A stretch of 61,148 bases of DNA from an uncultured Actinomycetes bacterium (GTDB lineage Bacteria > Actinomycetota > Actinomycetes > Nanopelagicales > Nanopelagicaceae). Below, in pieces: positions 8,340-53,527 of the stretch (within the stretch, counting starts at the first letter, position 1; every line of letters starts with the position of its first letter). The DNA lies in contig CAIMOX010000004.1 of NCBI GenBank assembly GCA_903843225.1, forward strand, positions 1 to 61,148, read 5' to 3'. The notes under the pieces are model-generated. The model searched no databases. It saw nothing but the letters and a program-made list of their open reading frames with translations, and had not been told where the DNA came from. The position numbers and the translations under genes are program-made.

Positions 8340-8479
8340 TTACGCTCGAGCATGGCAAATATGACCATTCTTGTTGGATGTAGGGCGGCCGTATACGCAT
8401 AAATTTGGCTCTAAATCGCGGTTGGGTAATTAGGTGGCCACTCGAGGCGGCCAATTCTCATCCAATGAAGGAGTACCAC

Positions 8480-10477: not shown

Positions 10478-10517
10478 TCGAAGCTCTACACAGTAAGTAG
10501 CTAGTCGTTTAACAGAT

Positions 10518-10563
10518 CGAGGGAAATTTCCCTGGTGCTTCTGCGGCGCCAGGGAAATCCTCG
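10518..10563 (+). terminator. Long hairpin after the second paralog, probable terminator
   Basis: Bases 10,518-10,538 and 10,546-10,563 form an almost perfect stem (CGAGG...TTTCCCTGGTGC against GCGCCAGGGAAAT...CCTCG) with a 7-base loop and a two-base bulge. It separates the type A paralogs from the five-gene type B operon. There is no run of T after the stem, so it could act as an mRNA stability or processing element instead. Confidence 0.6.
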
Positions 10564-10628
10564 TATCTCACCTCGAAAAGTCCATCTCTCCAGCAGGATA
10601 CAAGCAGAAGCAAAGGACACTTTCACCG

Positions 10629-15676: not shown

Positions 15677-17439
15677 GAAATTCACAATACAAAGCGATTA
15701 CATTTCTATCAGTTTTATTCACGGCATTATTTACCAGCGTCGGGATCGCTGCCACTGATGAAGCTTGGGTTCAAACCCCTCCTCCGACAGCGGAGGCATC
15801 GTGGGGAATTTTGGCTCAAGGAATTTCTCAGACTTACACAAGTTTCGCTACTCCAAGCTTGATGAGTTTTACTTCGGATGGATATCAATTTGGTGTCTCT
15901 AAGGTAATTGCAGTGAAGAAGTGTGACACGATAGGTGGAGCTGATTGCCCCCTATCAGAATTCCAGAAGTATCACTCCCCGATGAGTTTTTGCTCAGCTT
16001 CAAATTCAACTGACTGCGTCCAAGAGGTGACTGCCAAAAGTGCTAGTGGCGCTTCTCTGCAGGTAAATTATCTCGGACCATACGGCGGAGACCCTTCGTG
16101 GTCCTTCAAGGGAAATTCCTCTATGAATCTACCGACCTCTGGACAATCCTTTTTAGTCGATATCCCGAGCGCTCCTCATGCTGGCGGCAGTAAATATTTA
16201 ATTTCGTCTGTTCTCGACGGCGTGCGATACCCATCTGATTCTCAATTCACCACAAACGGATTGCAAGCAACTATCTGGCCAGTTAGCATTAAAACGGGAA
16301 CTTACCAGCCGTACGCCGAATCTCTTTCACCGACGAATTACTCTGCGTTAGGAGTTAACTCGGGTGCTGGGGGTGGTTGTGAAGGGGTTCAGTCGGAGAT
16401 CGGATCATGTGCGATCGCATCTGCGTTACCACTAGATGTTAGTTTCGGCATCAAATTGAAACTTAGGACAAAAGTAGATGGCTGGATTCACGGCCGTATC
16501 TCTCATGTGGATGCAACTGTCTCGCGAGCTGGTGATGGTGATCAGCTAGTAACAATTTCTGGGTTCCCGGTAAAAGTTCCTACAATCTTCGGTTGGGTCT
16601 CAAAAGAGAAAGCACCTGCTGCACTCACAAATTTCTATAAAGCGATGGATCCGTTCTATCTGAACATGGGAAATGGCTATGGAAGGTGTCTAGATCCGAG
16701 CGAAACTAGTGGACCGTGTAATCCAAGATACTGGGAATCGATCCTTCGAAGTCCAGGGACCTCACCGGATGGCATTCAGGAATTGGCACTGTGGTTACCA
16801 ATCGTTAATGACAAAGCTGTAGCAGCACCTTCTGCGTGGTCAGTCCGGACGGTATCTGGGAATCTCAATAATTGTGGAACGGAAACAAAAAATCTAGTTG
16901 GTTTTGTGAGTACGAATGCAACCGTTTACCTCCCTGGGCCTCCAACTTTTAATTCAGCGGATGGAACGTTAGATTACAAAGTCTTGTCAACGCACTACCT
17001 ACCTGATAATTCAGTCTCACAAGGTAGCTACGATTTGGTTATAGATAGTTCGGTTGCACGCTGCATCTACGGCTTCTCGAATGCACCAATAAAGGCGACC
17101 GTTTCTGTCATTTCTAGCGATGGGTCGTCTCAGGCTGTTACAACCACTGTGACTGAAAATAATGGCTTCCTGCGTATGTCTGCCAATGGCTTTACGTACT
17201 CTAATCCCACGATCAAAGTTAAATTCACGCAGGATGCGCCAGCGCCTGTCCTAACTCCTATTGCCACCCCAACTCCAGAGCCAACTGCTTCAGCAGCGCC
17301 AACGACCCAACCTGTCGTACCCGCTCCTAAGCCAACTGTTGTTGCAAAGAAGACGACCATCACCTGCGTTAAGGGTAAGACCACTAAAACGGTTGCCGCA
17401 GTCAAACCAACCTGCCCAACGGGATATAAAAAGAAATGA
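15673..17439 (+). CDS. Secreted protein, sixth paralog (type B)
   Basis: A 588-residue exported protein; ATG at 15673 overlaps the previous stop (ATGA). The signal peptide ends near VGIAAT. Conserved elements: FCSASNSTDCVQEV, VDIPSAPHAGG, GWIHGRISHV, GFVSTNATVYLPGPPTF, LDYKVLSTHYLPD, VARCIYGFSNAPI, NGFLRMSANGFTYSNP. A linker of about 50 residues rich in Ala, Pro and Thr precedes the module TC-x15-CPTGYKKK. The linker sequence is close to that of the next gene, which suggests gene conversion or recent duplication of the 3' ends. Confidence 0.82.
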   Translation: MRNSQYKAITFLSVLFTALFTSVGIAATDEAWVQTPPPTAEASWGILAQGISQTYTSFATPSLMSFTSDGYQFGVSKVIAVKKCDTIGGADCPLSEFQKYHSPMSFCSASNSTDCVQEVTAKSASGASLQVNYLGPYGGDPSWSFKGNSSMNLPTSGQSFLVDIPSAPHAGGSKYLISSVLDGVRYPSDSQFTTNGLQATIWPVSIKTGTYQPYAESLSPTNYSALGVNSGAGGGCEGVQSEIGSCAIASALPLDVSFGIKLKLRTKVDGWIHGRISHVDATVSRAGDGDQLVTISGFPVKVPTIFGWVSKEKAPAALTNFYKAMDPFYLNMGNGYGRCLDPSETSGPCNPRYWESILRSPGTSPDGIQELALWLPIVNDKAVAAPSAWSVRTVSGNLNNCGTETKNLVGFVSTNATVYLPGPPTFNSADGTLDYKVLSTHYLPDNSVSQGSYDLVIDSSVARCIYGFSNAPIKATVSVISSDGSSQAVTTTVTENNGFLRMSANGFTYSNPTIKVKFTQDAPAPVLTPIATPTPEPTASAAPTTQPVVPAPKPTVVAKKTTITCVKGKTTKTVAAVKPTCPTGYKKK

Positions 17440-19241
17440 AGAAGTCTTTTAAATTCGCGATTGTGATGGTTGCCGTGGCCCTGATATTTGGCACAAATAC
17501 TTCCAGTGCTGAAGTCGTTGGGGATCAGCACTGGATAACTCCCATCAATTCCTCTCCTACTTTTCACTCAATAACTTATCAAGATGAGCTTCCAGCACTG
17601 GCTACATACCCAAAGCTCACTGCCGAGCAGTACACCGCTGACCCAAACATTTGGAGTCGCTTTTTATGTGCATCAACTACTGACTCACATTGTCAAAATG
17701 TTAGCCAATTCTCGTATCAATCGATTTTCCCGGTTTGCCAACTAGCAGCCGATGTAGATTGTGTCGAAGGCGTGACTGCTATTTCTATTGCAGGGCAGTC
17801 TCAAGAAGGAAAGTTTATCTCCTACACCGTTCCAGACCATGTGAATAAGTTCCCACCAGATTTATCGCTGGGTATTCCGAAAACTGAGACTCCGAGTCTC
17901 TGGGATCTTCCCTCCGCACCCCATCAATATGGAACTCAATATGCAGTTGTCGTGGCTCAAACAGGGTCCGTCAGAATGGGCGCAAATGGGAACAGTACTC
18001 AATCTCAGTTATATGCCTATCTTCTCCCGGTTTCAAAAATCGATGTTGGTTATTTGAGAAATGAATCCCCACTCAAAGTTGGATATGACTCGTTGTGGGA
18101 AACACCAAAGGATTCTTCAGGGCGCACAAATACTCAGGGATACGGAACTTCTACCGATGCATGCACAATGTCTCTGACTGATCCGACTAAGTGCCTGACT
18201 TCACGGGCCTTCCCAGATGGATTTAAGTACTCTGTGAAGATTCGCCTTTCGAAAGAACCCGTTGCGTGGCTCCATGGCAGAATGGTTGATCCAAGCATTT
18301 CAATTTCTTCATTAAATGGTGCAGTGGTTATGACCGTGACTGCATCCCCCACAAAAGTCCCGGTTCTCTCACTTGGTGTGGACTCTTCCAAACTTACTTC
18401 GGATCAAGAAGGAATTTGGGTATCTTGCTTTACGGATGGGACGGTATGTACTGGTGGAGGAACTCACGATGGTCGTCCCATTGATTTCAATAGAACTTTT
18501 ACGGCTGATTACTCAAAGACCTTGAATCTCTGGGCGACTATGAATGGCTTCGGTGCAACTGCCATCAAAGGAGTTCAACTTCTCACTCCGCTTGTTGGAG
18601 ACAAATCACAAGCACTTCCCAGTGCGTGGAGTTTTCATACACTCCCCACTAATCAACTAGCAAAGGCTGATAGCTGTTTTGCAAACGGGCCCGGTTTAAA
18701 AGGAATAGTGACCACAAATTCAACGACCTATTCAGAAGGCCCTCCTTCCTTTAAGGACGGAAGTCTTCAATACACAGTCGCTTCACCTCACTTTAACCCG
18801 GATGGTTCTGTCTTTAAAGGAACATATAACCTTGTTATGAGGTCAGATGTAGCACGTTGCCTGTATAAATTTACGAGCGCGCCAATTAAAGCCTCTATTT
18901 CAGTTGTTTCCTCTGACGGTTCTGCAGACGTTGCAACGACTGTGTCAAATGAAACTGGTGGATGGCTTTACTTGTCTGCCAATAATTTCACATTCTCAAC
19001 TCCCACAGTCCAGGTAAAACTCTCTCAAGATGCACCTGCTCCAGTAGCAACCCCGACTCCTGTTGCCACCTCAACACCAGAGCCAACTGCCTCAGCAGCA
19101 CCAACAACTGCGCCTATCGCTCCGGCCCCAAAGCCAACGGTTGCTGCCAAGAAGTCCACCATCACCTGCATCAAGGGCAAGACATCCAAAGTAGTGACCG
19201 CCATAAAACCAACCTGCCCTGCAGGCTATAAAAAGAAGTAG
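17436..19241 (+). CDS. Secreted protein, seventh paralog (type B), end of the operon
   Basis: A 601-residue exported protein; ATG at 17436 overlaps the previous stop (ATGA). The signal peptide ends near TSSAEV. Conserved elements: VCQLAADVDCVEGV, WDLPSAPHQYG, AWLHGRMVDPSISI, GIVTTNSTTYSEGPPSF, LQYTVASPHFNPDG, VARCLYKFTSAPI, GGWLYLSANNFTFSTP, the Ala/Pro/Thr linker and module TC-x15-CPAGYKKK. It shares most with the fourth paralog. The operon ends here and meets a convergent minus-strand gene whose stop begins at 19,242, with no clear terminator between. Confidence 0.82.
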   Translation: MKKSFKFAIVMVAVALIFGTNTSSAEVVGDQHWITPINSSPTFHSITYQDELPALATYPKLTAEQYTADPNIWSRFLCASTTDSHCQNVSQFSYQSIFPVCQLAADVDCVEGVTAISIAGQSQEGKFISYTVPDHVNKFPPDLSLGIPKTETPSLWDLPSAPHQYGTQYAVVVAQTGSVRMGANGNSTQSQLYAYLLPVSKIDVGYLRNESPLKVGYDSLWETPKDSSGRTNTQGYGTSTDACTMSLTDPTKCLTSRAFPDGFKYSVKIRLSKEPVAWLHGRMVDPSISISSLNGAVVMTVTASPTKVPVLSLGVDSSKLTSDQEGIWVSCFTDGTVCTGGGTHDGRPIDFNRTFTADYSKTLNLWATMNGFGATAIKGVQLLTPLVGDKSQALPSAWSFHTLPTNQLAKADSCFANGPGLKGIVTTNSTTYSEGPPSFKDGSLQYTVASPHFNPDGSVFKGTYNLVMRSDVARCLYKFTSAPIKASISVVSSDGSADVATTVSNETGGWLYLSANNFTFSTPTVQVKLSQDAPAPVATPTPVATSTPEPTASAAPTTAPIAPAPKPTVAAKKSTITCIKGKTSKVVTAIKPTCPAGYKKK

Positions 19242-19777: not shown

Positions 19778-19865
19778 CGGCGAAGCATGGGCAAGGAGCG
19801 GAAAGGTACATGAAGAGAGATGCTGTCACTGTGAATAAGTGGGGGCTGTGCATTAAAAACTAGAG

Positions 19866-19939
19866 TGGCTCGGGACAGGATCGAACTGTCGACCTCACGA
19901 TCTTCAATCGCGCGCTCGTACCAACTGAGCTACCGAGCC
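19866..19939 (-). tRNA. tRNA-Phe(GAA), copy 1
   Basis: The reverse strand folds into a 74-base cloverleaf: acceptor GGCTCGG/CCGAGCC, D-loop AGTTGGTAC, anticodon loop TTGAAGA, T-arm GACAG-TTCGATC-CTGTC, discriminator A. CCA is not encoded. The base after the anticodon (position 37) is G instead of the A seen in copy 2 at 60,101. Confidence 0.95.
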
Positions 19940-19963
19940 AGTATTAGTGGCGTTGTATAACCG

Positions 19964-20037
19964 CGACCCAGACGGGACTTGAACCCGCGACCTCCGCCGT
20001 GACAGGGCGGCGCGCTAACCAACTGCGCTACTGGGCC
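19964..20037 (-). tRNA. tRNA-Asp(GTC), copy 1
   Basis: A 74-base cloverleaf on the reverse strand: acceptor GGCCCAG/CTGGGTC, anticodon loop CTGTCAC, T-arm GCGGG-TTCAAGT-CCCGT, discriminator G as expected for tRNA-Asp. It lies 24 bases from tRNA-Phe and is probably cotranscribed with tRNA-Glu. Confidence 0.95.
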
Positions 20038-20169
20038 TAACCGAGTGCCCGGCTCCTGCTATTACGCATTCAACCGAACATCTCATTCGATACAGGATCG
20101 CTCCCGTACCAAAGCTAGGTCGTATCTTTTTCAGATACCTATTTAATTATCAACCCTGTGAGGGATTGG

Positions 20170-20242
20170 TGCCCCCAACGGGGTTCGAACCCGTGTTACC
20201 GCCGTGAAAGGGCGATGTCCTAGGCCTCTAGACGATGGGGAC
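20170..20242 (-). tRNA. tRNA-Glu(TTC)
   Basis: A 73-base cloverleaf on the reverse strand: acceptor GTCCCCA/TGGGGGC, anticodon loop CTTTCAC, T-arm ACGGG-TTCGAAC-CCCGT. It is the first gene of the Glu-Asp-Phe transcript; the 130 bases between Glu and Asp show no other gene. Confidence 0.95.
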
Positions 20243-20302
20243 GTTTAGAGCGAGCGCTAAGGGTATCGGACGCACGGCCTGCGGCAAAACTCAGTTATTG
20301 CG

Positions 20303-21085
20303 CTACTTCAGCTCCCACTTTGTGGTCACAGTGACCGTAATTGACTGCTGGCCGAGATCGATCTGGACTGGTGCCGCCATCGATCCTGCCGACTTTGCCA
20401 TCGCCATCAATGGAATTGGCCCTGATTGATTGACCTGCTCATCAACGCTCAATACCAAGCCGAGCTTTGAGCCGGTGAGAGAGGCGTAACTTTCAGCCTT
20501 CGCCTTTGCAGCAGCGATGGCCAGTGTGCGGGCGTTCGCCTCTGCAATCTTCTGGTCATAGACAAAAGAGGTAGTCGAATTGATAGAGAGTGCATTACCC
20601 ACAGCGCTCTGCAGATTCGAAATAATGAGGCCAGCGTTCTTCGCATCACGGATCACAACATTGAAGTTCTGAGTGGAACGGTATCCGACTATCTTTGCAG
20701 CCCCCGCTGATGAGTAACTGTATTCAGGGTTGGTCGAGAGATTGACTGCTCGAATGTATTGAGCCTCAACACCATTCTTCTTCAAGCTAGCACGGAAGGC
20801 ATCGGCTGATTGTGCAGTGGATGCGAGTGCTGCTGCCTGGCTCGAAGCGAGCGTTGAAATATTTGCATCAACCCGAACAGAATCGGGTGTCACCTTTACA
20901 GTGCCATCGCCCACCACGTTTACAAAGCGGGCCCCAGCAAAGGATTCATCACCGTTATAGCCTGATCCCATATGGCCAAAGCCCATGTGATCGGATCCCA
21001 TACGGCCACCAAATCCAAAGCTCAGCGCTACTACGATAACGAGTACGCCTGCAGCGCCTGCTAGATACCAAGGTTTAATCTTCAT
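20303..21085 (-). CDS. SIMPL (DUF541) domain exported protein
   Basis: A 260-residue protein with an N-terminal membrane anchor or signal segment (about residues 7-26), a Gly/Met/His-rich spacer (SDHMGFGHMGSGYNG) and a SIMPL/DUF541 domain: VVGDGTVKVTPDSVRVDANIST, a helix with Ala/Ser repeats, YSSAGAAKIVGYRSTQNFNVVI, and AIAAAKAKAESYASLTGSKLG. SIMPL proteins are periplasmic or surface-exposed with unclear roles, some linked to oxidative stress. The Met/His-rich spacer might bind a metal, which is speculation. It is transcribed away from the Sua5 gene. Confidence 0.85.
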   Translation of the reverse strand: MKIKPWYLAGAAGVLVIVVALSFGFGGRMGSDHMGFGHMGSGYNGDESFAGARFVNVVGDGTVKVTPDSVRVDANISTLASSQAAALASTAQSADAFRASLKKNGVEAQYIRAVNLSTNPEYSYSSAGAAKIVGYRSTQNFNVVIRDAKNAGLIISNLQSAVGNALSINSTTSFVYDQKIAEANARTLAIAAAKAKAESYASLTGSKLGLVLSVDEQVNQSGPIPLMAMAKSAGSMAAPVQIDLGQQSITVTVTTKWELK

Positions 21086-21158
21086 ACCTTTATCCTCTCA
21101 CTAATTCATCGATCCTATAAGTGCGTAAGAAGCGAGAAATAGGTGAGAGAATTAGGCC

Positions 21159-22121
21159 ATGACGCTCTTCTCGGTATGCACGACAGATACCTTGGTTGAC
21201 GCTGCCACGGCGCTGAAATCTGGCGCACTCGTCGCATTCCCAACTGAGACGGTCTATGGGCTCGGTGCTGATGCGCAGAACCCCGAAGCAGTGGCACGTA
21301 TCTACTCCGTAAAAGGTCGTCCCGCGGATCACCCACTCATCGTCCATATTGATTCGATGGATCGTATGGGGGATTGGGCAGCGGATGTTCCGGCATTCGC
21401 TATTGCGCTCGCTCGCGATTACTGGCCTGGGCCAATGACACTGGTTTTACAGCGCAGCGCTATCGCCAAAGACTTTATTACTGGGGGACAAGAGACTGTT
21501 GGGCTCCGGGTTCCAGCACATCCATTAGCTCTTGGACTACTTAAAGCATTTCATGAAGCCGGTGGGCTCGGCATCGCAGCACCATCAGCAAATCGATTCG
21601 GTGCAGTCTCTCCAACCACGGCTGATGCAGTGCAAGAAGAACTCGAAAGTTATATGGCCGATACTGATCTGATTCTCGATGGTGGCCCATCACTTGTTGG
21701 AGTTGAATCAACGATTATTGATTGCACCGGCGATGCTCCACGAATCCTGCGCTTAGGTGCGATCACGCAAGAGATGATTGAAGAGACAACCGGCTTGGTT
21801 GTTACTGATGCAACCAGCGCTCAATCAGATATCCGCGTATCCGGTTCACTTGAATCTCATTACTCACCTAAAGCAAAAGTTATTCTCGATGTTGTTGCTG
21901 TTGCCGGTGATGGTTTGATTGCACCAGATCAGATCCCAACTCCTAACGGAGTCATTCGACTGATGGCGCCATCGACAAATGAGCAATATGCTAGGGATTT
22001 GTATCGAGCACTTCGATTAGCCGATCAAAAGGGCCTTGAAGTCGTTGTTGCCCTACAACCCGGTGGCGATGGACTTGCAGCTGCGATCCGAGATCGCTTG
22101 CAACGCGCAGCACACGAGTAA
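21159..22121 (+). CDS. L-threonylcarbamoyladenylate synthase (Sua5/TsaC type)
   Basis: A 320-residue two-domain protein. The N-terminal YrdC domain shows GALVAFPTETVYGLGADA, the KGRPADHPLIVHI substrate-binding block, WPGPMTLVL, GLRVPAHPLA and APSANRFGAVSPTTA. The C-terminal about 110 residues form the Sua5 domain (HYSPKAKVIL linker). It makes threonylcarbamoyl-AMP from threonine, bicarbonate and ATP for t6A37 in tRNAs reading ANN codons. In many actinobacteria it lies near prfA/prmC/wecA genes; here it precedes an ABC exporter by 26 bases. Confidence 0.94.
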   Translation: MTLFSVCTTDTLVDAATALKSGALVAFPTETVYGLGADAQNPEAVARIYSVKGRPADHPLIVHIDSMDRMGDWAADVPAFAIALARDYWPGPMTLVLQRSAIAKDFITGGQETVGLRVPAHPLALGLLKAFHEAGGLGIAAPSANRFGAVSPTTADAVQEELESYMADTDLILDGGPSLVGVESTIIDCTGDAPRILRLGAITQEMIEETTGLVVTDATSAQSDIRVSGSLESHYSPKAKVILDVVAVAGDGLIAPDQIPTPNGVIRLMAPSTNEQYARDLYRALRLADQKGLEVVVALQPGGDGLAAAIRDRLQRAAHE

Positions 22122-22147
22122 TATTCCAAGTTGATAAGGAGCAATAG

Positions 22148-23884
22148 GTGTTAACAACAGTACTTCGTAAGTACCTTGCGCCATATCGCGCTACCGTTAT
22201 GGGTATCACCGTGCTCTTGCTGATTCAGACAATCACCAACCTTTACCTACCAAACCTCAACGCCGATCTCATTAACAATGGCGTGACCAAGGGCGATATT
22301 CATTACATCTGGCACATCGGTCTCATTATGTTGGCATCTTCTGCGCTGATTATGGGTGCTTCAGTCTGGCTCGCATATTTGAGCTCAAAGGTATCGATGG
22401 CATTCGGTCGCGATATGCGAGACGATGTTTTCTCAACCGTCGAAGGGTTCTCGGCCCGCGAGCTCAATCAGTTTGGCGCACCCTCATTGATTACTCGTAA
22501 TACGAACGACGTACAACAAGTACAGATGGTGCTCTTTATGGGGCTCACCATGATGGTTGGCGCTCCGATTACTGGTGTTGGCGCTGTGATCATGGCAGTC
22601 CATACCAATGCCACGCTCTCCCTACTTTTACTCGTATCGGTTCCGATCATGAGTCTTTTAATCTTCTTCTTGCTCCGTCGGGTTGTCCCACTCTTTCGCA
22701 CTACCCAACTTAAAGTTGATCGCATTAACTTAATTCTGCGCGAGCAGATCGCAGGAATCCGAGTAATCCGAGCCTTCGTAAAGACTCGTGAAGAAGAAGC
22801 TCGCTTTGCGGCGAGCAATCAAGATCTCATGGATGTCCAGCTCAAGGTAACTCGCACCTTCGCCATCATGTTCCCGGCTTTGATGCTGATATTAAATCTA
22901 TCGAGCGTTGCAGTGCTCTGGGTCGGCGGACATTTGATCAATACTGGTTCGATGCCGATCGGTAATTTGATGGCATTCTTGACCTACATCATGCAGATTC
23001 TCTCGAGCGTAATGATGGCTGTGATGATGTCGCTAATGATTCCGCGCGCTGCTGCATCTGCCGAGCGAATCAAAGAAGTGTTAGATACTCCTTCATCAGT
23101 TGGTGATGCGATTAATCCCCTCACCCCAGCAAAGCGTGAAGGCGTTCTAACCTTTGACTTTGTTGAATATCGCTATCCCGGCGCTGAGCATCCAGTCTTA
23201 TCAAATATCTCTTTTACTGCTCACCCAGGCCAAGTCACCGCAATTGTGGGTTCAACTGGATCCGGTAAGACCACTCTGCTTAATTTGATTCCACGTTTTA
23301 TTGACCCGACTTCTGGACGAGTTTTGCTTGATGGTATCGATGTCAAAGATCAATCACTCGAAGGGATCTGGTCAGAGATTGGCCTTGTTCCACAACGATC
23401 ATTCTTATTCGGTGGCACGATCGCTGAGAACCTTCGATACGGTGATCTCAATGCCAGCGATGAAGAACTCTGGGCGGCACTTGAAATTGCTCAAGGCAAA
23501 GATTTTGTCTCAGAGCTCGCCGATGGGCTTCAATCACGAGTCGCTCAGGGCGGCACCAACTTCTCTGGTGGTCAACGCCAGCGCCTTTCTATCGCGCGTG
23601 CAATTGTGAAGAACCCACGGATCTATCTACTTGATGATTCATTCTCAGCGTTGGATTACACAACCGATGCAAAGCTTCGCGTGGCACTTGAAGATCATGC
23701 CAAGGATTCCACGGTAATTATCGTTGCACAGCGGGTATCAACAATTCTGAGCGCAAATCAGATCATTGTTCTGAACGAGGGCAAGATCGATGGCATTGGC
23801 ACACATGCCGACCTCATGAATACTTGTAAGACTTATCAAGAGATTGTCTTGTCGCAGCTCAGCCCTGAAGAGGCTGCATCATGA
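22148..23884 (+). CDS. ABC exporter half-transporter, degenerate-site subunit
   Basis: A 578-residue protein: six membrane helices (about residues 15-300) then an ATPase domain. Start GTG at 22148 with AAGGAG upstream. Walker A is GSTGSGKTTLLN; signature FSGGQRQRLSIARA; Walker B YLLDDSFSALD, where Asp replaces the catalytic Glu; the H-loop is VAQRVST, with Gln in place of His. These two changes mark the non-hydrolysing site of heterodimeric exporters of the TM287/288, BmrCD or LmrCD kind. The next gene overlaps by four bases and supplies the partner. Substrate unknown; drugs or lipids are usual. Confidence 0.92.
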   Translation: MLTTVLRKYLAPYRATVMGITVLLLIQTITNLYLPNLNADLINNGVTKGDIHYIWHIGLIMLASSALIMGASVWLAYLSSKVSMAFGRDMRDDVFSTVEGFSARELNQFGAPSLITRNTNDVQQVQMVLFMGLTMMVGAPITGVGAVIMAVHTNATLSLLLLVSVPIMSLLIFFLLRRVVPLFRTTQLKVDRINLILREQIAGIRVIRAFVKTREEEARFAASNQDLMDVQLKVTRTFAIMFPALMLILNLSSVAVLWVGGHLINTGSMPIGNLMAFLTYIMQILSSVMMAVMMSLMIPRAAASAERIKEVLDTPSSVGDAINPLTPAKREGVLTFDFVEYRYPGAEHPVLSNISFTAHPGQVTAIVGSTGSGKTTLLNLIPRFIDPTSGRVLLDGIDVKDQSLEGIWSEIGLVPQRSFLFGGTIAENLRYGDLNASDEELWAALEIAQGKDFVSELADGLQSRVAQGGTNFSGGQRQRLSIARAIVKNPRIYLLDDSFSALDYTTDAKLRVALEDHAKDSTVIIVAQRVSTILSANQIIVLNEGKIDGIGTHADLMNTCKTYQEIVLSQLSPEEAAS

Positions 23885-25836
23885 GCCAGCAACGTCCTGC
23901 GAGCCCAGCAGCGGGTGGAATGCGCGGCGGCCCAATGGGCGGCATGATGGGTGCGCCTCCTGCAAAGTCCAAGAATTTCAAGGGCTCATTACGTCGCTTA
24001 ATGGCAGAGCTCAAGCCTGAGCGAAATATCTTGGTCACTGTTCTAGTGCTCATCACATCATCAGTAACGATCGGCGCCTTCGGTCCCAAGATTCTCGGTC
24101 GCGCAACCAACGAAATCTTTAATGGATTCATTGGGAAGAAACTCCCAATGGGCCTGTCAAAAGATCAAGTCGTCGCAGGGCTTCGGGCAAAGGGTCAAAC
24201 AACTCAAGCAGACATGCTGGCGAAGAGTTCTGTGATCCCAGGCCACGGTATGAATTTCACAACGATCGCTCACTTCTTACTTCTCGCCATTGCGCTCTAT
24301 GTAATCTCATCTCTCTTCATGTGGGTTCAGGCTTATCTCATGGCTGGCGTTACACAGCGCACCGTATATCGCTTGCGTCGCCTCGCAGAAGAGAAGATTG
24401 GTCGACTACCGCTTAAATACTTTGATACTCAGTCTCGTGGTGATCTGCTCAGTCGCGTGACCAACGATATCGACAACATCGCGACATCACTGCAGCAAGG
24501 TCTCTCACAGATTCTAAACTCAGTTCTGACTGTCGTATCAGTCTTAATCATGATGGTCTGGATCAGTCCCGAGCTTGCGCTCGTCAGCTTGATCGCGATT
24601 CCACTATCCATGTTCGCCTCAGTGAAGATCGCAAAGCGATCTAAAGTTGAATTCGTCGCCCAATGGGATTGGACCGGAAAACTCAATGGCCACGTTGAAG
24701 AGATGCATACTGGCCATGCACTTGTGAAGGTATTTGGCCGCCGCCAACAAGCGATCAAGGATTTCAAATCCCTCAACTCGAATCTCTATGAATCAAGCTT
24801 TAAAGCTCAGTTCATCTCGGGAATTATCCAACCTGTGACGCAGTTGGTTTCAAACCTGATCTATGTGGCGATTGCAGTGCTTGGTGGATATCGGGTAGCC
24901 ACAGGCGCCATGAGCCTTGGTGATGTTCAGGCATTTATCTCGTACTCGCGTCAGTTCGGTATGCCACTAGCTCAGATCGCAGGATTGATGAACACAGTTC
25001 AATCTGGTGTTGCTTCTGCCGAGCGACTCTTCGAACTTCTCGATGCGACCGAGGAAGAACCTGATCGTAAAGATTCAACTCCAATCGGACGCGCTAAGGG
25101 TGAAGTGATCTTCAAAGATGTCTCATTCCGATATGTGAATGATCAGCCACTGATTGAAAACTTTAACCTCACTGTAAAACCTGGGCAGACCGTCGCAATT
25201 GTTGGGCCGACAGGAGCTGGCAAGACAACGCTTGTGAACCTCATCATGCGCTTCTATGAAATCAATAGTGGAGTTATCACGTTGGATGGCATCGATACCA
25301 AGATGATGACTCGCGATGATCTCCGCCGACAATTCGGAATGGTTCTGCAAGAGACCTGGCTCTTCAGTGGATCAATGCGTGAGAACATCGCTTTCGGTTC
25401 AACAAATCCATCTGATGATCAGGTTGCAGCTGCAGCATCTGCGGCAAATATCGATCACTTCATACGCGCCTTGCCTAAAGGATTCGATTCTCTTCTCACC
25501 GACGATAACTCGACAGTCTCTAATGGAGAACGCCAGCTCTTAACTATCGCTCGCGCCTTTATGGCAGACCCGGCAATTTTAATTTTGGATGAAGCCACAT
25601 CCTCTGTAGATACCCGTACCGAAGTATTGGTTCAACAAGCGATGGCAAAGCTTCGCACCGGCCGTACCAGCTTTGTGATCGCTCACCGACTCTCAACAAT
25701 TCGTGACGCCGATGTAATCCTGGTAATGGATAAAGGCGCGTTGGTTGAGCAAGGCACCCACCACCAGTTAATGGCAGCCAAGGGCTTCTATTACGACCTG
25801 TATGCGAGCCAGTTCTCAGCCAGTATCGCCGAATAA
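23881..25836 (+). CDS. ABC exporter half-transporter, catalytic-site subunit
   Basis: A 651-residue partner of the preceding gene. It has a Gly/Met/Pro-rich N-terminal tail (about 30 residues), a membrane domain interrupted after the first helix by about 45 extra residues, and an ATPase domain with Walker A GPTGAGKTTLVN, Walker B LILDEATSSVD with catalytic Glu and H-loop IAHRLST. Its signature is VSNGERQLLTIARA, departing from LSGGQ, as expected when it faces the degenerate ATP site of the partner. Four-base overlap (ATGA) implies equal production of the two halves. Confidence 0.92.
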   Translation: MSQQRPASPAAGGMRGGPMGGMMGAPPAKSKNFKGSLRRLMAELKPERNILVTVLVLITSSVTIGAFGPKILGRATNEIFNGFIGKKLPMGLSKDQVVAGLRAKGQTTQADMLAKSSVIPGHGMNFTTIAHFLLLAIALYVISSLFMWVQAYLMAGVTQRTVYRLRRLAEEKIGRLPLKYFDTQSRGDLLSRVTNDIDNIATSLQQGLSQILNSVLTVVSVLIMMVWISPELALVSLIAIPLSMFASVKIAKRSKVEFVAQWDWTGKLNGHVEEMHTGHALVKVFGRRQQAIKDFKSLNSNLYESSFKAQFISGIIQPVTQLVSNLIYVAIAVLGGYRVATGAMSLGDVQAFISYSRQFGMPLAQIAGLMNTVQSGVASAERLFELLDATEEEPDRKDSTPIGRAKGEVIFKDVSFRYVNDQPLIENFNLTVKPGQTVAIVGPTGAGKTTLVNLIMRFYEINSGVITLDGIDTKMMTRDDLRRQFGMVLQETWLFSGSMRENIAFGSTNPSDDQVAAAASAANIDHFIRALPKGFDSLLTDDNSTVSNGERQLLTIARAFMADPAILILDEATSSVDTRTEVLVQQAMAKLRTGRTSFVIAHRLSTIRDADVILVMDKGALVEQGTHHQLMAAKGFYYDLYASQFSASIAE

Positions 25837-25926
25837 ATCCAGCAGAGTTTGTCCGCGGGTCGTAGGTCTTCCATTCGTCGATCTTTTCTAATTGGCTTTA
25901 GCCACATCTAGTGAGAGGGATCAACA

Positions 25927-26256
25927 ATGGGTAAGCGAGTTCTTGCTCATTATTACTATCGCGTCAAGTTCGGGCAATACGCAAAAGCAAATAAATATTT
26001 TGAAGAGATAAAGGCTGAGGCGCTCAAACTCGGTATTAGTGATGTACTTATGGGAACAGTTGAGATCGGACAGAACTCACCATCAACCTACTTCTCACTC
26101 ATTTTTGAAAGCGCTGATGCTTACGGTCGCCAGTGGGGCGGCGGCTCAGAGTATGAAACCAAGAGCGCTGCATGGGTTGCTTTATGGAAGCGAATTAGTG
26201 GAGAAGAGCATCAGGTCATCGAAGGTGTGGGATCAGACCTGATCTACGAGAAGTAA
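25927..26256 (+). CDS. Small protein of unknown function, possibly a dimeric alpha-beta barrel fold
   Basis: A 109-residue soluble protein with GAGGG before the ATG. It starts MGKRVLAHYYYRVKFGQYAKANKYFEE, alternates strands and helices, and ends HQVIEGVGSDLIYEK. The size and pattern (strand, helix, DVLMGTVEI strand, STYFSLIFE strand, helix) resemble NIPSNAP or monooxygenase-like dimeric barrels, but no specific family is certain. It is a single gene between the ABC exporter and a convergent operon. Confidence 0.65.
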   Translation: MGKRVLAHYYYRVKFGQYAKANKYFEEIKAEALKLGISDVLMGTVEIGQNSPSTYFSLIFESADAYGRQWGGGSEYETKSAAWVALWKRISGEEHQVIEGVGSDLIYEK

Positions 26257-26274
26257 AAGAGCAATTCGCCCGTC

Positions 26275-26754
26275 TCAACCACCAAACTCGAGATTAAGTT
26301 GCACTTCAGTGCTCGTTAGAGCTGAGGAAGAATCCAAACTAGCGCCGATAGAGCTAAAGTGAGTTGGATCAGCGGATTTTAATTTCATTCCAAAGATCAG
26401 CGCACGCATGGCACCTTGATCTGGGGTTTCTAGACTAGGGCTATACCCCCCAACAATTTGAATCGACGAGATGGGTGTTTCAAGAGGTAGTCCGTTCGAC
26501 TTTTCATAACTAACGATATCTGATCGAATTGCCGCCATGTCGAAGTTTGGGTAGATCTTACTGACAAGATATTGTGCAGCTTGATCTGAATGACTTTTTG
26601 CAGCAATGGTTGTGGACGGCAAGTTTGGTACCTTAGGAACGAAGGAGATCGTGGCCAAGAAGATCACCATCAGAGCCAAAAAAAGATCTGCATACATCCA
26701 GCCAGCCTGTCCGAGAATATCGGGTTTTCCGACTTCACTATATCGGCGCCTCAT
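26275..26754 (-). CDS. Stator-like membrane protein (MotB/ExbD/ZorB-like layout)
   Basis: A 159-residue protein with a short basic cytoplasmic head, one membrane helix (about residues 18-40, GWMYADLFLALMVIFLATI) and an outer domain of about 115 residues. An Asp at position 23 near the start of the helix follows the YAD arrangement of MotB and ZorB, where it carries protons. The outer domain (IVGGYSP.....GAMRALIFGMKL) faintly resembles an OmpA-like peptidoglycan-binding fold. The ATG overlaps the stop of the partner membrane gene by four bases. Function unknown; a proton-driven stator is inference. Confidence 0.6.
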   Translation of the reverse strand: MRRRYSEVGKPDILGQAGWMYADLFLALMVIFLATISFVPKVPNLPSTTIAAKSHSDQAAQYLVSKIYPNFDMAAIRSDIVSYEKSNGLPLETPISSIQIVGGYSPSLETPDQGAMRALIFGMKLKSADPTHFSSIGASLDSSSALTSTEVQLNLEFGG

Positions 26755-27464
26755 TGGATCTTCCGAATTGACTTGAGTGCATCCTTCGAAATATCCTGCA
26801 GAATCTTTGTCGATCTAGCGAGCGATTCTGTAGAACTTGTTAATCGATTGACACCTTGGGCCATTGATTGATTCATAACAAGAGGAGTCAGAGTTCGCTT
26901 ATCAAAGAAGAAATCGACGATTGCAAGACCAATTTCAATTCGAGCTGTATCTGCCATCTCAATTTGAGCTTCCTCAATCATAGAAATACGACGATCAGTA
27001 AAGCTCACAGCAACCGTCAGAGCGATAACAATTGTAATGAGTAGGAAGTCAAGGAAGGCAATGTGCCCAATTACCCATTCTCGTCCCAGAATATGAAACC
27101 CGTTCTGCCAAAACTCTAGGAAGTTAGCAACTGAACCAGTATTTCGGGAGACATAAATTGCAAAAGCAGAGGTCGCGTGACTAACAGCGCTCCACGTCAA
27201 GGCCACGGGAACGAAGACGAGAATATTTCGAACTAGCGTCAGGGCAAAAGATAGGCGTTTTAAAAGAGAGCTTGGTGAAGAATTCGGGTGTGGTAACAAA
27301 ATAAAAGGATCAAGAGTCGCAAACTTTGGCCAACGCTTGCGGCTAACAAGTCCATCTGTGATCGCTTTGATGTAGGGATCATCAGTAGCACCGTATTCTT
27401 TGGCCCATCGCGAAACCTTCTCTGCAAGGATGAGATGTGATTGAAGCTTTGGTGTCCGTGCCAT
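26751..27464 (-). CDS. Two-helix membrane protein, possible stator partner (MotA/ExbB/ZorA-like role)
   Basis: A 237-residue protein: about 70 cytoplasmic residues, a first membrane helix near residues 76-103, an outer loop with aromatic residues (LEFWQNGFHILGREW), a second helix near 130-155 (FLDFLLITIVIALTVAVSF), and a C-terminal helical tail of about 80 residues ending MAQGVNRLTSSTESLARST. A long helix after the membrane part is also a property of ZorA-type proteins, but I see no clear MotA/ExbB signature. ATG at 27464 abuts the stop of the kinase reading frame, so kinase and both membrane proteins are one translation unit. Confidence 0.6.
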   Translation of the reverse strand: MARTPKLQSHLILAEKVSRWAKEYGATDDPYIKAITDGLVSRKRWPKFATLDPFILLPHPNSSPSSLLKRLSFALTLVRNILVFVPVALTWSAVSHATSAFAIYVSRNTGSVANFLEFWQNGFHILGREWVIGHIAFLDFLLITIVIALTVAVSFTDRRISMIEEAQIEMADTARIEIGLAIVDFFFDKRTLTPLVMNQSMAQGVNRLTSSTESLARSTKILQDISKDALKSIRKIQ

Positions 27465-29162
27465 TTAGAGCTCCTTGCCTGCCGCGGGGATTTCAGCAAC
27501 TAACGTCGCTTTTTGATTCTTATTGATTAACTGCCAATTCTTGTTGGTGGCTTTGTCATAAATCATCGCTCCAAAGCCTCCGGTGAAGGAGTGCACCAGC
27601 TAACCATCATTGGATGCTTCGAGCGAGATTGAATCGGCTTTGTACTCGATTGTAAAAGTAATCGCTGTCGCAGCCCCGTGCCTACATGCATTCGAAATAG
27701 CCTCGCTAACCACTTCGCATAGTTGGTCTAAGGCGATCGAATCTGGACATGAATCAATTGATCTCTCACTAATTAGGACGTCGATGAGTGGTGACCAGAG
27801 ATCTTTAATAGTTTCTAGCCGGTCTCGAATTGGGATCTGGCTCTCTACAGATGTAATCGAATCTGGCAAGATCAAATAACTAGTAATAATCTCGAGCTCC
27901 TTCCGAACTTGACCTTCCGTCTTTAGATTATAAATTCGAAAGGCGGAGCTATTTAATTTAGTTTGAAGTGAGCCATGAAGAAACCGAGCAAGTTTGTCTA
28001 ACGATGCATTATGAGAATAGATATGTGTTGTGATATTTCGGTATTCTGTGAAGTATCGACTTTGAATCTTATCTAGAGATTGCAAAGAGGTCATTAGATA
28101 AGCACCCGAGAAAGGTACCATCAAGATTAAAAAGATCGTCCATAAAGCTATCAAGATAAAGGATTTGAGATCCAAAATTCCATTAAGTAGTCTATAAGCG
28201 CCAAGGCAACAGAGAGCATTGAGTAGTCCCGCTATTACTGAGAACAGAAAGACATAATTAACGGCAGGAAGTGTGTGCTTGTAAGTCCAAACGAGCAAAG
28301 CAATTAATGCCATGAAGGAAGTAGTATTGAGAGTGAATAGAATTAAGCCTTTCGCGATTCCAAATCCGCTGATATCACTTCGAATTTGAGTAGCACTGTA
28401 AAAGGAAACCATCCAAGGCCACTGTCTCTCTATCGAATCTGGAATTAAGAGCATTAGGGCAAGTGAATCTTTGAATAACTTTTGATGATTTGTAGTAGCT
28501 GTTACAACCCGGTGGCTTAGCGGTCGAACTAGATTGTTCGCTAAATCACGAATCTCTCTCGCTATCTGTGAGTTTTGAGGCAAATTTTTCTTCTGTGATA
28601 ATTTCAAGATCTCATTTCGACTCTTATCAAGGCGGTGTGAAACTTCTTCTACTAGCCTAATGCGAATCGGAGTTATATTTTTAGCATCTTTTAATTGCTC
28701 AATACTTGTCAAGATCGCATGATGCTGTGCCGTAGCTTTGGATATTTCATAGTAGGAAAAGGAGATTAGAGCGGTAAAAGGCACTGCAATACATCCGATC
28801 AAAGAACCATTGATAATTCGGATAAATCCAACGCCGAGAGTCTCAGATGGAATATGGTAAATCATTCGAGCACAAGTGAAGGTGATCGCACCACGAAAAG
28901 CTCCGAGCCCTAGACCCAATGAGAATAGAGCGTTATTAGAGATGGGATTCTCAATGCGGTCAGCCAGCAAGGTTTTATCAAGTATTACTAGGAAAAAGAC
29001 CGAGAGAAGAAGTGAGATTGTAGAAACGACCGTCCATCGCAGAAAGATTTGCTTTGAAATGTTATCTTCGGTTAGTGGAATGCTAAGAATAAGAAATGGA
29101 ACGAAGAGAACACCGATACGATAATTGATCGCGTGTCGCCCGCCCAGAATTATGGTTCTCAA
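27465..29162 (-). pseudogene. Membrane sensor histidine kinase interrupted by an in-frame TAG
   Basis: The open frame from 29162 gives 520 residues and ends at TAG (27,600-27,602). Reading on in the same frame adds 44 residues (LVHSFTGGFGAMIYD ... AEIPAAGKEL) up to TAA at 27,465-27,467, directly before the next ATG. The 520 residues hold about eight membrane helices, the phosphoacceptor block ARFLHGSLQTKL (His396), and the N box EAISNACRHG (Asn491). The TAG falls right after SLEASNDG, the first Gly box; the second Gly box (TGGFGAM) lies behind it. The stopped product lacks an essential part of the ATP lid. It could be an inactivating mutation, programmed readthrough or a sequencing error. The 4-base overlap with the regulator gene shows a single operon. 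Confidence 0.8.
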
Positions 29163-29812
29163 TTGATGTGACTATTTTCGCTCGGGATCGATCCAGATTC
29201 TTGAAAATATAATCGAGATAACTCGACACGCTTGTTAATGTGTCTGTCATCTATCCTGAAGTGATGAATCAAACGCGAAATTGCCTGCTCTACCGATTTC
29301 TCGCGCACTCCTCTTACTTTTGCGATCTCGGTATTAGAGAAACCGAGAGCAACGAGTCGAAGTGTTTCAAGTTGAGCGTCTGGAATCGATATGCCCTGTT
29401 TTTTTATTGGCGCCGATTCACTATGTAGATTTTTTGATAATGAAAGTAAAATTTCTTGATGTAATTTCTCTACCTCATGAATATCGCGCTTCACTAGGTA
29501 GCGCGATCCTCCAGGAAGCCTGGCAATTTTCGGATCTAAATATCTCGGATCATTGAATCCAGTCAGTAAGACGATCCCGATCCGTGGAAGGATTCTTCTA
29601 AGCCCTAAAGCTAGGTCGACTCCATTAGGTCCAAATCCCAAATCAAGATCTAAGACTGCCACGTCGGGCTTGGAGACCCCGGCAACCTTCATAGCGGATG
29701 CGACCGATCCAGTGTCATGCACAATTTCAAGGCCTTGTAGTTGGAGTGCTGCCTTGATCGTAGTACGAGTGAAGGCATCATCCTCGACGAGCATGACCCG
29801 CAATCTTTGCAT
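29159..29812 (-). CDS. LuxR/NarL-family response regulator
   Basis: A 217-residue regulator: receiver domain (about 1-120) with acidic pair EDD at 10-12, phosphoacceptor block VAVLDLDLG (Asp55), LLTGF and the conserved Lys in YLVKRD; then a LuxR-type helix-turn-helix (about 140-195, DAQLETLRLVALGFSNTEIAKVRGV). It overlaps the kinase gene by four bases and is the first gene of the minus-strand operon. The recognition helix region (REKSVEQAISRLIHHF) is typical of the family. Candidate targets are its own operon and the divergent surface-protein genes at 30,028 and 30,841. Confidence 0.88.
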   Translation of the reverse strand: MQRLRVMLVEDDAFTRTTIKAALQLQGLEIVHDTGSVASAMKVAGVSKPDVAVLDLDLGFGPNGVDLALGLRRILPRIGIVLLTGFNDPRYLDPKIARLPGGSRYLVKRDIHEVEKLHQEILLSLSKNLHSESAPIKKQGISIPDAQLETLRLVALGFSNTEIAKVRGVREKSVEQAISRLIHHFRIDDRHINKRVELSRLYFQESGSIPSENSHIN

Positions 29813-30027
29813 AGGACTAAAATAGTGTGTTCTAGGTTGAGGGGTTACCCCTTCGGGGGATCGCCATATCTAGATAGTAGGGCTAACCCAGCGTGCCAGC
29901 CATTCCCACGCCTGTAAAAGTTGCCAGTTTCAGCGGAAAAAAAAATCTCAGTGAAAAATACGCTTCGTGTCGTATCCCCACGACATTGAGTTGCTGTAAG
30001 CCGTAAGAGCTTCTAAAGGAGGCGGTC
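29813..30027. promoter_or_regulatory. Divergent intergenic region between the two-component operon and surface-protein genes
   Basis: This 215-base stretch must hold promoters for both directions. In the leader of the minus-strand operon (29,841-29,858) two hairpins share one arm: CCCC-GAA-GGGG and GGGG-TAA-CCCC, so only one can form at a time. On the plus strand AAAGGAGG lies 6 bases before the ATG at 30,028, an unusually strong ribosome binding site. I could not assign -10/-35 boxes with confidence. Confidence 0.45.
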
Positions 30028-30825
30028 ATGAAGAGTTGGACTAGACATCGATTCTTTGGTTCATGTGCAATTGCCGTGGGGTCACTTGGATTGGCTCTGA
30101 TTTTCTCTCCTGTTATTTCAAGTTCAGCAACATCACCAGCTGGAAGCACTGAAAGAGATACCATCGGAGGATCTACAGTCCCTGCACCACAGTGCCAGTG
30201 GGCGATCAACGGTTCGACTACTACTCCCGCAATGGCAAATGCAACGAAATACGCTGGAACACAATTAACTCTGACCGCAGCGCCAGTTACTTCAAGCGCT
30301 AAGGTTATTGCAGTTGGCTCTGACCCAAGCGCAACCTGCGTGTGGTGGTCCGCAACGGGTCAAAATGCATCAATCACAGCAAGTATGGCCCCAAATATTT
30401 ATTTAGGTGACCACTGGAACGGGATATATAACAGTTCTTATTTCCCTCACACAACATCCAACTATGGAATGTATGATGCAAACGGATATCTTTCATGGGT
30501 CTTCAAAAGTCCGTCAACTGATTTAGATATGACAGCGACTACAAATGGCGATAACACCGCATCTTGTGTTTACAACACACTCGGTCTCTCATCTGCGAAT
30601 GCATCAGGAGCATCACTTGCTTCGGTCGGAAACCACAATAGCCAGGCCGGCTGTTCATGGAGCACTGTTTACTCCACTGCAATCCCAGATCAGAGTACTC
30701 TTTACAATGGAACAACTTCCACCGTGCCCAATGGCACTGGAAAAGCACTTGACGCCACATTCGGTAGCTACACATCGGTTACGCTGATTGGTCCAGTCGT
30801 AACTACAACCCTCTCTCTGAGCTAA
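30028..30825 (+). CDS. Secreted Ser/Thr/Asn-rich protein of unknown function
   Basis: A 265-residue exported protein with a strong Shine-Dalgarno. The signal peptide covers about residues 1-34 (SPVISSSATS). The mature part is rich in Ser, Thr and Asn, with several Cys (APQCQWAING, SATCVWWSATG, TASCVYNTLG, AGCSWSTVY) that could form two disulfides, and ends in a repetitive hydrophobic strand VTTTLSLS. This C-terminus and spacing resemble small fibre- or WxL-like surface proteins, but no WxL motif is present. It is followed 15 bases later by a DUF916-like membrane protein, so the two are likely partners. Confidence 0.72.
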   Translation: MKSWTRHRFFGSCAIAVGSLGLALIFSPVISSSATSPAGSTERDTIGGSTVPAPQCQWAINGSTTTPAMANATKYAGTQLTLTAAPVTSSAKVIAVGSDPSATCVWWSATGQNASITASMAPNIYLGDHWNGIYNSSYFPHTTSNYGMYDANGYLSWVFKSPSTDLDMTATTNGDNTASCVYNTLGLSSANASGASLASVGNHNSQAGCSWSTVYSTAIPDQSTLYNGTTSTVPNGTGKALDATFGSYTSVTLIGPVVTTTLSLS

Positions 30826-30840
30826 CTACACCAGCCATAA

Positions 30841-31974
30841 GTGCGAAAGACTTTCAGTGCGCTCATAACGATCTTGTTTGGGGTGATCATCGCAACCCCA
30901 GGATCAGCATCTGGCAATTTAGGTATCGCGGTGCAAGTCAAACCCATACCTGGGTTAAGCACAAGCTCGCAAGATAGTCACTCTACAAACCTTACATTTT
31001 TGCTTAAACCCGGTGAGAGCTCTTCGAGAGTTTTACAGATACAGAACACCGGAAATGTCCCAGGATTCTTCTCTCTTCGTTTGTCTTATAGTCATTTAGT
31101 AAATGGGATTCCAGTGTTCGATGAGAGTAAAACTAGTGAGATTACACCGTGGTTTTCGCTGAGCCAGCCCCGATTTCAAATAGGCGCCGGTGGGAGAGCC
31201 GAATCAACGATGACCCTAAATATCCCAAAGGGAACTCCTATTGGAATCCATGAGGGAACAATATTTATTACTGCAGACCCCGTGACACTCACATCTGCAA
31301 GCCGCGGTGCCCAGGCTTCGATCAAATCAAATGTTCGAATCGCACTATCTTTCTTCCTAGGTGTCGGAGACACGAATCAGATAGTTACTCTCTTTGCGAT
31401 CGAGAGTGTGCAAGAGAAATTTAATGGTGCGGCGCCTTATCTAGTTGTGAGTTTGCGCAATACAGGTAAAACACCAATCGCTCCAAGTGGATCAATAACA
31501 CTTGAAGATCCGAAGCATATATTCACAGTAAGTGCCCCGATTAATTTCAACTCTGGAACGATTCAACCTGGTACTTCTGGTGCAGTCGAAGTACCTTTAC
31601 CTGCATCAATCCCTTCAGGGAATTGGTCGGCTCTCACAACAGCAACCCAAGGGTCTGTTGTCCAAACAAGTAGAGGTGATATCACCATCTACAAGGTGGT
31701 GCCAGTAAATTACACTGGAATCTTCATCAAGGTAGGGGCGGCCGTCTTATTCATTATATTGATTTTCGTCGGCTTGATTCTTGTACGACGGAGTAAGAAA
31801 AATATTATCAATAGTAATGACTCTGAATCAAACTTAACCGAGCTTGAGTTGGCAGATACTAAGCAACCGTCAAAAAAAGTCATCAAGAAGAAGGCACCAG
31901 CAAAGAAGGCACCAGCAAAGAAGGCACCAGCAAAGAAGGCACCAGCAAAGAAGGCACCAGCAAAGAAGCGTTAG
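30841..31974 (+). CDS. DUF916-like (WxL-interacting-protein-like) surface membrane protein with a Lys/Ala/Pro repeat tail
   Basis: A 377-residue protein starting with GTG at 30841. Signal peptide ends near PGSASG. The outer part has two Ig-like domains: first LLKPGESSSRVLQIQNTGNVPGFFSL ... with PWFSLSQPRFQIGAGG and PIGIHEGTIFIT, then LVVSLRNTGKTPIAP. This fits DUF916-type proteins that bind surface partners in Gram-positive bacteria. One membrane helix lies near residues 300-322 (AAVLFIILIFVGLILV), followed by a cytoplasmic tail of about 55 residues ending in five KKAPA-type repeats. The basic tail could bind nucleic acid, ribosomes or acidic phospholipid; this is inference. It is expected to pair with the secreted protein encoded just upstream. 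Confidence 0.72.
   Translation: MRKTFSALITILFGVIIATPGSASGNLGIAVQVKPIPGLSTSSQDSHSTNLTFLLKPGESSSRVLQIQNTGNVPGFFSLRLSYSHLVNGIPVFDESKTSEITPWFSLSQPRFQIGAGGRAESTMTLNIPKGTPIGIHEGTIFITADPVTLTSASRGAQASIKSNVRIALSFFLGVGDTNQIVTLFAIESVQEKFNGAAPYLVVSLRNTGKTPIAPSGSITLEDPKHIFTVSAPINFNSGTIQPGTSGAVEVPLPASIPSGNWSALTTATQGSVVQTSRGDITIYKVVPVNYTGIFIKVGAAVLFIILIFVGLILVRRSKKNIINSNDSESNLTELELADTKQPSKKVIKKKAPAKKAPAKKAPAKKAPAKKAPAKKR
31891..31965 (+). repeat. Five perfect 15-base tandem repeats inside a coding region
   Basis: The unit AAGGCACCAGCAAAG occurs five times without a mismatch and encodes KAPAK repeats at the C-terminus of the DUF916-like protein. Perfect identity implies recent expansion or length variation between strains. 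Confidence 0.95.
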
Positions 31975-32060
31975 CTTCTCGCAATTACGGTTTTATGAAA
32001 CTTCACAATATTAAGGATCGGGACGCCACGAATGCCCCATAGGTGAAAAACCCAGCGCAC

Positions 32061-32077
32061 ACCGCCCTTTCGGCGGT
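32061..32077 (+). terminator. Short GC-rich hairpin downstream of the DUF916-like gene
   Basis: ACCGCC-CTTTC-GGCGGT forms a six-base-pair stem. No T run follows, so it is at best a weak terminator or mRNA 3' stabiliser. It lies 87 bases after the stop and before tRNA-Lys. Confidence 0.4.
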
Positions 32078-32135
32078 ACCAGCCAAACCAATTAAGCCAG
32101 TTAAGTCAACAAAGTAATCTGTGATTCTTTCTTCC

Positions 32136-32170
32136 TATAGACTCTCCCACTGAGCGTGAAAGCGCTCGTG
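32136..32170 (+). promoter_or_regulatory. -10 box and leader of tRNA-Lys copy 1
   Basis: TATAGA (32,136-32,141) is followed by a leader with a small stem (GAGCG...CGCTC). The leader is repeated exactly before tRNA-Lys copy 2 (TATAGA at 47,774), with a two-base insertion just after the box, so the duplicated unit includes promoter and tRNA. Confidence 0.55.
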
Positions 32171-32243
32171 GGGCCTATAGCTCAGTCGGTAGAGCAACGG
32201 ACTTTTAATCCGTGGGTCGACAGTTCGAGCCTGTCTGGGCCCA
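32171..32243 (+). tRNA. tRNA-Lys(TTT), copy 1
   Basis: A 73-base cloverleaf: acceptor GGGCCTA/TGGGCCC, anticodon loop CTTTTAA, T-arm GACAG-TTCGAGC-CTGTC, discriminator A; CCA not encoded. It differs from copy 2 (47,811) only by one compensated base pair in the T-stem (A-T here, G-C there). It marks the left edge of the catabolic cassette. Confidence 0.96.
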
Positions 32244-32283
32244 CTTCTCTGTAGTCCCGGCGTACCATCTTCTATAAATCAGA

Positions 32284-47608: not shown

Positions 47609-47810
47609 AATTATGAGAAGGTCAAACCCTCTCGGTCTTTACTTCCTACCAGTCAGCACCTTAAAGAAGCGGATTACCTTGTTGCGCCAACGCTTTCCCT
47701 GCTGAATTGGATTTAATTCAAGCACTTGCATATGGGCTGGTTCACCAGGAGTTTTGACCTGTTCGCCTACCGTTATAGAGACTCTCCCACTGAGCGTGAA
47801 AGCGCTCGTG

Positions 47811-47883
47811 GGGCCTATAGCTCAGTCGGTAGAGCAACGGACTTTTAATCCGTGGGTCGACGGTTCGAGCCCGTCTGGGCCCA
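47811..47883 (+). tRNA. tRNA-Lys(TTT), copy 2
   Basis: Same 73-base cloverleaf as at 32,171 with T-arm GACGG-TTCGAGC-CCGTC. Promoter -10 box TATAGA at 47,774 and the leader are shared with copy 1. It forms the junction between the two cassettes and is the intact partner of the fragment at 60,663. Confidence 0.96.
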
Positions 47884-47940
47884 CTCATTTAGCGCATGCA
47901 ATGCGCAGTTGAGTGTGCTTTTACATCGAATCATCAATTC

Positions 47941-52993: not shown

Positions 52994-53527
52994 ATGCCTA
53001 TCCAAGTTGAAGAAACTGCCATCCCTGACGTAAAAATTGTCCGCGCGACACGCTTTCATGATGAACGTGGATTCTTTACTGAAACTTACAAGGAAGCCGA
53101 ATATCTTGAGGCGGGAATACCAAAATTTGTTCAGGATAATTTATCGGAATCATCCAAAGGTGTCATACGTGGGCTGCACTGGCAAACCTCACCTTACGGA
53201 CAAGGAAAGCTTGTTAGTTGCCTGAGTGGCGCTATTTTGGATGTTGCAGTTGACATTCGAAAAGAAAGCCCAACTTTCGGTCAACATGTTTCAGTTGCAT
53301 TAAATTCATATGAACAAATTGCATTGTGGGTGCCTGAAGGGTTTGCCCATGGATTTCAGGCACTAGAAGACGGTACGCGTGTTCATTATAAAGTTACGAA
53401 TTATTGGAATAAAGACTCTGAAAGATCATTAAATAGCCTTGACCCTCACCTGGGAATACCTTGGCATAAGTTACCCATATTGTTGTCAGAAAAAGACAAC
53501 TCAGCTCCAACTCTCCGGCAAGTATGA
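52994..53527 (+). CDS. rfbC: dTDP-4-dehydrorhamnose 3,5-epimerase
   Basis: A 177-residue cupin-fold epimerase following rfbA without a gap. DERGFFTETY, VIRGLHWQ with the catalytic His, VDIRKESPTFG and ALWVPEGFAHGFQAL are RmlC hallmarks; the catalytic His-Asp pair is present. It inverts C3 and C5 of dTDP-4-keto-6-deoxyglucose. It overlaps the RgpF-like gene by four bases. Confidence 0.94.
   Translation: MPIQVEETAIPDVKIVRATRFHDERGFFTETYKEAEYLEAGIPKFVQDNLSESSKGVIRGLHWQTSPYGQGKLVSCLSGAILDVAVDIRKESPTFGQHVSVALNSYEQIALWVPEGFAHGFQALEDGTRVHYKVTNYWNKDSERSLNSLDPHLGIPWHKLPILLSEKDNSAPTLRQV

Follow-up and report, generated by a model that had tools for sequence, protein, structure and literature searches.

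We analysed a 61,148-nucleotide stretch of DNA from an uncultured Actinomycetes bacterium (the window, here meaning that whole stretch). Part of it is occupied by a two-component signalling operon, in which the frame of a sensor histidine kinase is broken by an in-frame TAG. The features that concern us, by coordinate, strand and basis, are:

25927–26256, plus strand: conserved ORF at the border of an accessory segment (comparison with sister L159)
26257–32132, no strand: accessory segment with the kinase operon and the ORFs 30028–30825 and 30841–31974, missing in sister L159 (GC content and sister comparison)
26275–26754, minus strand: membrane protein of 159 aa, second of a conserved pair (neighbourhood comparison)
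26751–27464, minus strand: membrane protein of 237 aa, first of the conserved pair (profile and neighbourhood comparison)
27468–27599, minus strand: 44 in-frame codons after the stop, with the G2 box (GGFGA) and the last helix and strands of the ATPase domain (alignment, profile score, spacing)
27471–27476, minus strand: AAGGAG, a ribosome-binding-like site of the next gene, within the last kinase codons (read in the sequence)
27600–27602, minus strand: in-frame TAG, codon 521, directly behind the G1 box (NDG) (frame reading; all 34 aligned relatives have a sense codon)
27603–29162, minus strand: kinase part before the stop, with membrane part, phospho-acceptor helix (LARFLHGSLQ), N box (EAISNACRHG) and G1 box (frame reading, domain and profile matches)
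29159–29812, minus strand: response regulator with receiver and LuxR/NarL-type HTH, its stop overlapping the kinase start (domain matches)
32171–32244, plus strand: tRNA-Lys (ttt) at the segment border (tRNA search and comparison with L159)

The kinase frame (29162–27468, minus strand) starts with a TTG at 29162 and runs for 520 codons to ...SLEASNDG, where the TAG (27602–27600) stands as codon 521. Behind it lie 44 sense codons (LVHSFTGGFGAMIYDK...AAGKEL), GGFGAM among them, that extend to 27468 and end in a TAA (27467–27465), with the ATG of the next gene following directly at 27464. As read from the sequence, the TAG is the only interruption, and we found no second stop within the 564 sense codons of the frame. 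This frame reading on the minus strand confirmed the original prediction that the TAG splits the kinase ATPase domain, with the second glycine box behind it.

As expected for a sensor kinase of the GHKL/HATPase_c type, the phospho-acceptor H396 is invariant and the N box aligned in the 11 sequences compared. The product translated with table 11 ends after NDG and leaves the G2 box behind the TAG, so that its ATPase domain is incomplete, and the HATPase_c match of the kinase as written falls below its cut-off. DevS, DosT, VraS and DesK have ATPase domains that match the family profile. The window kinase is like these sensor kinases in its ATPase-domain profile match and in having a response regulator in front of it, but unlike them its frame as written ends after the G1 box. 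The first position of the G1 box is N in the window copy, D in 30 of 34 relatives and N in two; because two relatives also have N there, NDG, judged from the alignment, is not by itself a sign of decay.

We compared the stop with the corresponding position in relatives, using the C-terminal 200 residues of 34 distinct sequences. The stop falls inside a conserved domain, and its column holds a sense codon in all 34 intact relatives, encoding ten different residues. A search with the full-length profile gave matches in 161 of 296 family genomes and in 376 of 394 class genomes, in the class mostly through the ATPase domain alone. A single-protein query matched in six of 32 genus genomes, including the window's own, the other five matches being 22–27% identical; a single-protein scan of genome contigs found no close kinase relative, and a plasmid search for the kinase gave no match. 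Among the matches listed from the 296 family and 394 class genomes, eight distinct places besides that of the window were flagged as carrying one stop, and we read all of them. Seven are natural C-terminal stops (L086–L090, L232 and L233), as is the TGA at a HATPase_c match elsewhere in the window's own genome (G000:C41), and at the eighth (L091), close to the end of a contig, the frame changes before the ATPase domain is reached. Among the matches listed, the window copy alone is thus broken inside the ATPase domain. A recurrent or conserved stop was rejected, since no relative examined carries a stop there; programmed read-through or UAG reassignment would be expected to show conservation of the stop and its context, and neither is conserved.

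The 44 residues behind the stop resemble the end of a kinase far more than chance would allow. A profile built from the columns behind the stop in the 34 relatives, with the window copy left out, gave them 16.2 bits, compared with 9.0 bits for the best of 5000 shuffles. When the stop is counted as one residue, the spacing to the G2 box is 8, as it is in 24 of the 34 relatives. The sequence after the stop is therefore homologous and in register, bearing out the earlier claim of an intact tail with frame and spacing kept, and the spacing disfavours a frameshift or indel in place of a point stop. The original prediction had also called the decay very recent. Absence of a second lesion fits that description; however, the nearest relatives found, at only 22–28% identity, are too distant to date the TAG change or to support a rate test for loss of constraint. 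Absence of a second lesion in the tail fits a sequencing error or read-through as well.

The first of these alternatives is that the TAG arose through faulty base calling or assembly, or that the consensus took up a minor allele, with the gene intact in most cells. The lesion is single and isolated, with no other decay across the 564 codons, and the draft genome comprises 54 contigs; moreover, sister records are labelled uncultured actinobacterium MAGs, so the window's genome may be a MAG too. We surveyed ORF ends in a sample of 461,148 of the 1,348,165 bases, consisting of the window, which was included because of the finding, and 20 stretches of 20 kb. A mechanical set of 411 ORFs, none overlapping and each 100 aa or longer, was drawn from this sample by length alone, and 22 of them have an in-frame tail of at least 30 codons that is mostly free of another such ORF. 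The kinase tail ranks first of the 22 by coding-like codon usage. The only other positive tail is a separate ATG-started ORF of 44 aa behind a 676-aa ORF, which we take to be DNA ligase. Hence, the kinase TAG is the sole stop in the 411-ORF sample behind which coding-like sequence continues in frame without forming a separate ORF. No second ORF of the sample is interrupted in this way, so such stops are not widespread in the assembly; this argues against an error, and we consider that alternative, although the strongest competitor of our preferred reading, unlikely.

A second alternative is that read-through of the UAG is frequent enough to be useful and gives a low level of full-length kinase; the original prediction had left room for this. 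The tail is intact, in register and coding-like, and the RNA around the stop is predicted to fold slightly more stably than shuffled sequences do (z −1.89, with 8 of 200 shuffles as good). However, any recent mutation would leave an intact tail, and the fold signal is weak and not convincing. Promoter-like sites were no commoner than in shuffles, and terminator-like sites numbered 5, compared with a shuffle mean of 2.7; our interpretation draws on neither result. The sense codon in all aligned relatives also speaks against read-through, as does the state of UAG decoding in this genome. UAG terminates 91 of the 411 ORFs in the 461-kb sample, RF1, the release factor for UAG, is present with a score above the curated cut-off, and none of 42 tRNA matches, one of them unassigned, has a CUA anticodon. 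Neither a UAG-decoding tRNA nor loss of RF1 was thus found, general recoding or a suppressor was rejected on these grounds, and the original prediction that general recoding is unlikely was upheld. Read-through as such gained no positive support, and we regard it as very improbable. Compared with known cases of programmed stop-codon read-through or UAG reassignment, the window UAG is similar in being in frame with coding sequence on both sides, but differs in being unconserved, in a genome with RF1, no CUA anticodon found and UAG in wide use as a stop.

The earlier claim that TAG is an ordinary stop elsewhere in the window was borne out. Of its two examples, lhgO is probably an FAD-dependent oxidoreductase at 49011–50219, which does end in TAG, but the name DUF3073 was not confirmed; the one short TAG-ended ORF scanned (62 aa, 3097–3285) had no Pfam match at 0.001. 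The unassigned one of the 42 tRNA matches is a tRNA-like gene (L052; G000:C46:1281–1354) with an unusual anticodon loop, read by ARAGORN as gacg.

We also examined the genes downstream of the kinase. The 237-aa membrane protein has matches in 47 of 296 family genomes, and its gene is adjacent to that of the 159-aa protein in 19 of 20 neighbourhoods examined; the 159-aa gene was not found in the twentieth (L139), a 3-kb contig in which the 237-aa match ends near the contig start. A kinase of the same family lies within ~6 kb of the pair in four of the 20 neighbourhoods (L138, L146, L147 and L156), and in family genomes the pair (window 26275–27464) mostly stands without a kinase nearby. No Pfam family was found for either protein of the pair. 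One of 13 relatives of the 159-aa protein has a weak ExbD match (E 0.032).

The kinase gene lies in a segment that is missing from sister species, a point beyond the original prediction. Sister L159 has an ABC transporter 90% identical to that of the window, and it holds the window's 19853–25835 and 25885–26259, with the tRNA-Lys block ~46 bp after the conserved ORF. Because L159 joins the conserved ORF to the tRNA-Lys block, 26257–32132 is extra in the window. GC content in this segment is 0.43–0.46, compared with 0.49–0.52 at 20–26 kb. Six sister genomes lack the DNA of the segment, apart from brief stretches matching one ORF's repetitive tail (window 31887–31968). Two of the six encode an intact but distant family kinase at another locus; in a further two the matches are just weak or partial, and the last two gave none. 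The label Candidatus Nanopelagicaceae is attached to a 73% relative. The kinase operon was probably acquired. One paper links many prokaryote pseudogenes to failed horizontal transfer (Genome Biol 2004, PMC522871). L159 instead carries another insert at the neighbouring spot (L159 8094–11870), which lies between its ABC transporter and the conserved ORF and holds an ORF of 1258 aa; the spot looks variable. By eye, the 1258-aa ORF has a signal-like start and an OmpA-like end.

An accessory segment absent from sisters is a plausible place for real decay, which again argues against a sequencing error. An ordinary broken gene, or else a sequencing error, is the most probable account of the kinase, rather than a new reading of the code; more specifically, we think it likely that the TAG is a real nonsense allele of an accessory two-component sensor histidine kinase. 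We infer that the base is real, the product dead and the event recent. One base change would have turned codon 521 into UAG, where ribosomes would terminate. The shortened product would keep the membrane part, the phospho-acceptor histidine, the N box and the G1 box but not the G2 box or the last part of the ATPase fold, and is predicted to be unable to autophosphorylate. Proper ATP binding is not expected of a GHKL ATPase that has lost the G2 box and all that follows. The stop should leave production of the response regulator and the two membrane proteins possible, since the gene after the kinase carries a ribosome-binding-like site of its own, and loss of the kinase is probably tolerated, because the low-GC segment beside tRNA-Lys is missing in sister species. 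The locus resembles known nonsense-inactivated accessory genes in having one disabling stop in an otherwise intact frame, in a patchy segment beside a tRNA gene, and differs from them in that the window kinase has no known high-identity parent copy and a single lesion, and in that the base comes from the assembly only.

Two further readings take the shortened or leaky gene to be functional. In one, selection would have favoured the truncated protein as such, for example as a receptor that lacks kinase activity but dephosphorylates the regulator or keeps it bound. In favour of this, the phospho-acceptor helix, the N box and the whole sensor part are open; however, all 34 aligned relatives keep a complete ATPase domain, and a long-selected truncation would not maintain a tail that is still coding-like, so we find this reading scarcely credible. 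In the other, the UAG would be a leaky stop with a regulatory role, specific to this lineage; it would keep active kinase at a low level in an accessory two-component operon next to a tRNA gene, and the downstream membrane pair would be partly uncoupled from the kinase. This we regard as a long shot. Proof of a full-length protein would make the locus an instance of bacterial signalling that employs a leaky UAG. Under the nonsense-allele reading, the locus is a small example of a tRNA-adjacent accessory signalling operon in a small-genome actinobacterium of freshwater type, with the kinase lost and the other genes open. The annotation of 27600–29162 as a kinase should carry a truncated mark.

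Several other features of the window concern its tRNA genes, repeats and base composition. A tRNA-Lys (ttt) occurs twice, at 32136–32245 and 47776–47885, the copies being 97% identical over 110 bases including the upstream flank, and there is a third, partial copy at 60663–60720. The pair tRNA-Phe/tRNA-Asp also occurs twice, at 19864–20038 and 60099–60326. The repetition of these genes suggests tRNA-bounded islands. At 8246–19239, six tandem ORFs end in a common 92-base repeat, 67–88% identical to the reference copy, and form a paralogous array. Finally, GC content falls to 0.38–0.42 at 52000–60000, compared with 0.48–0.51 in the first 14 kb.
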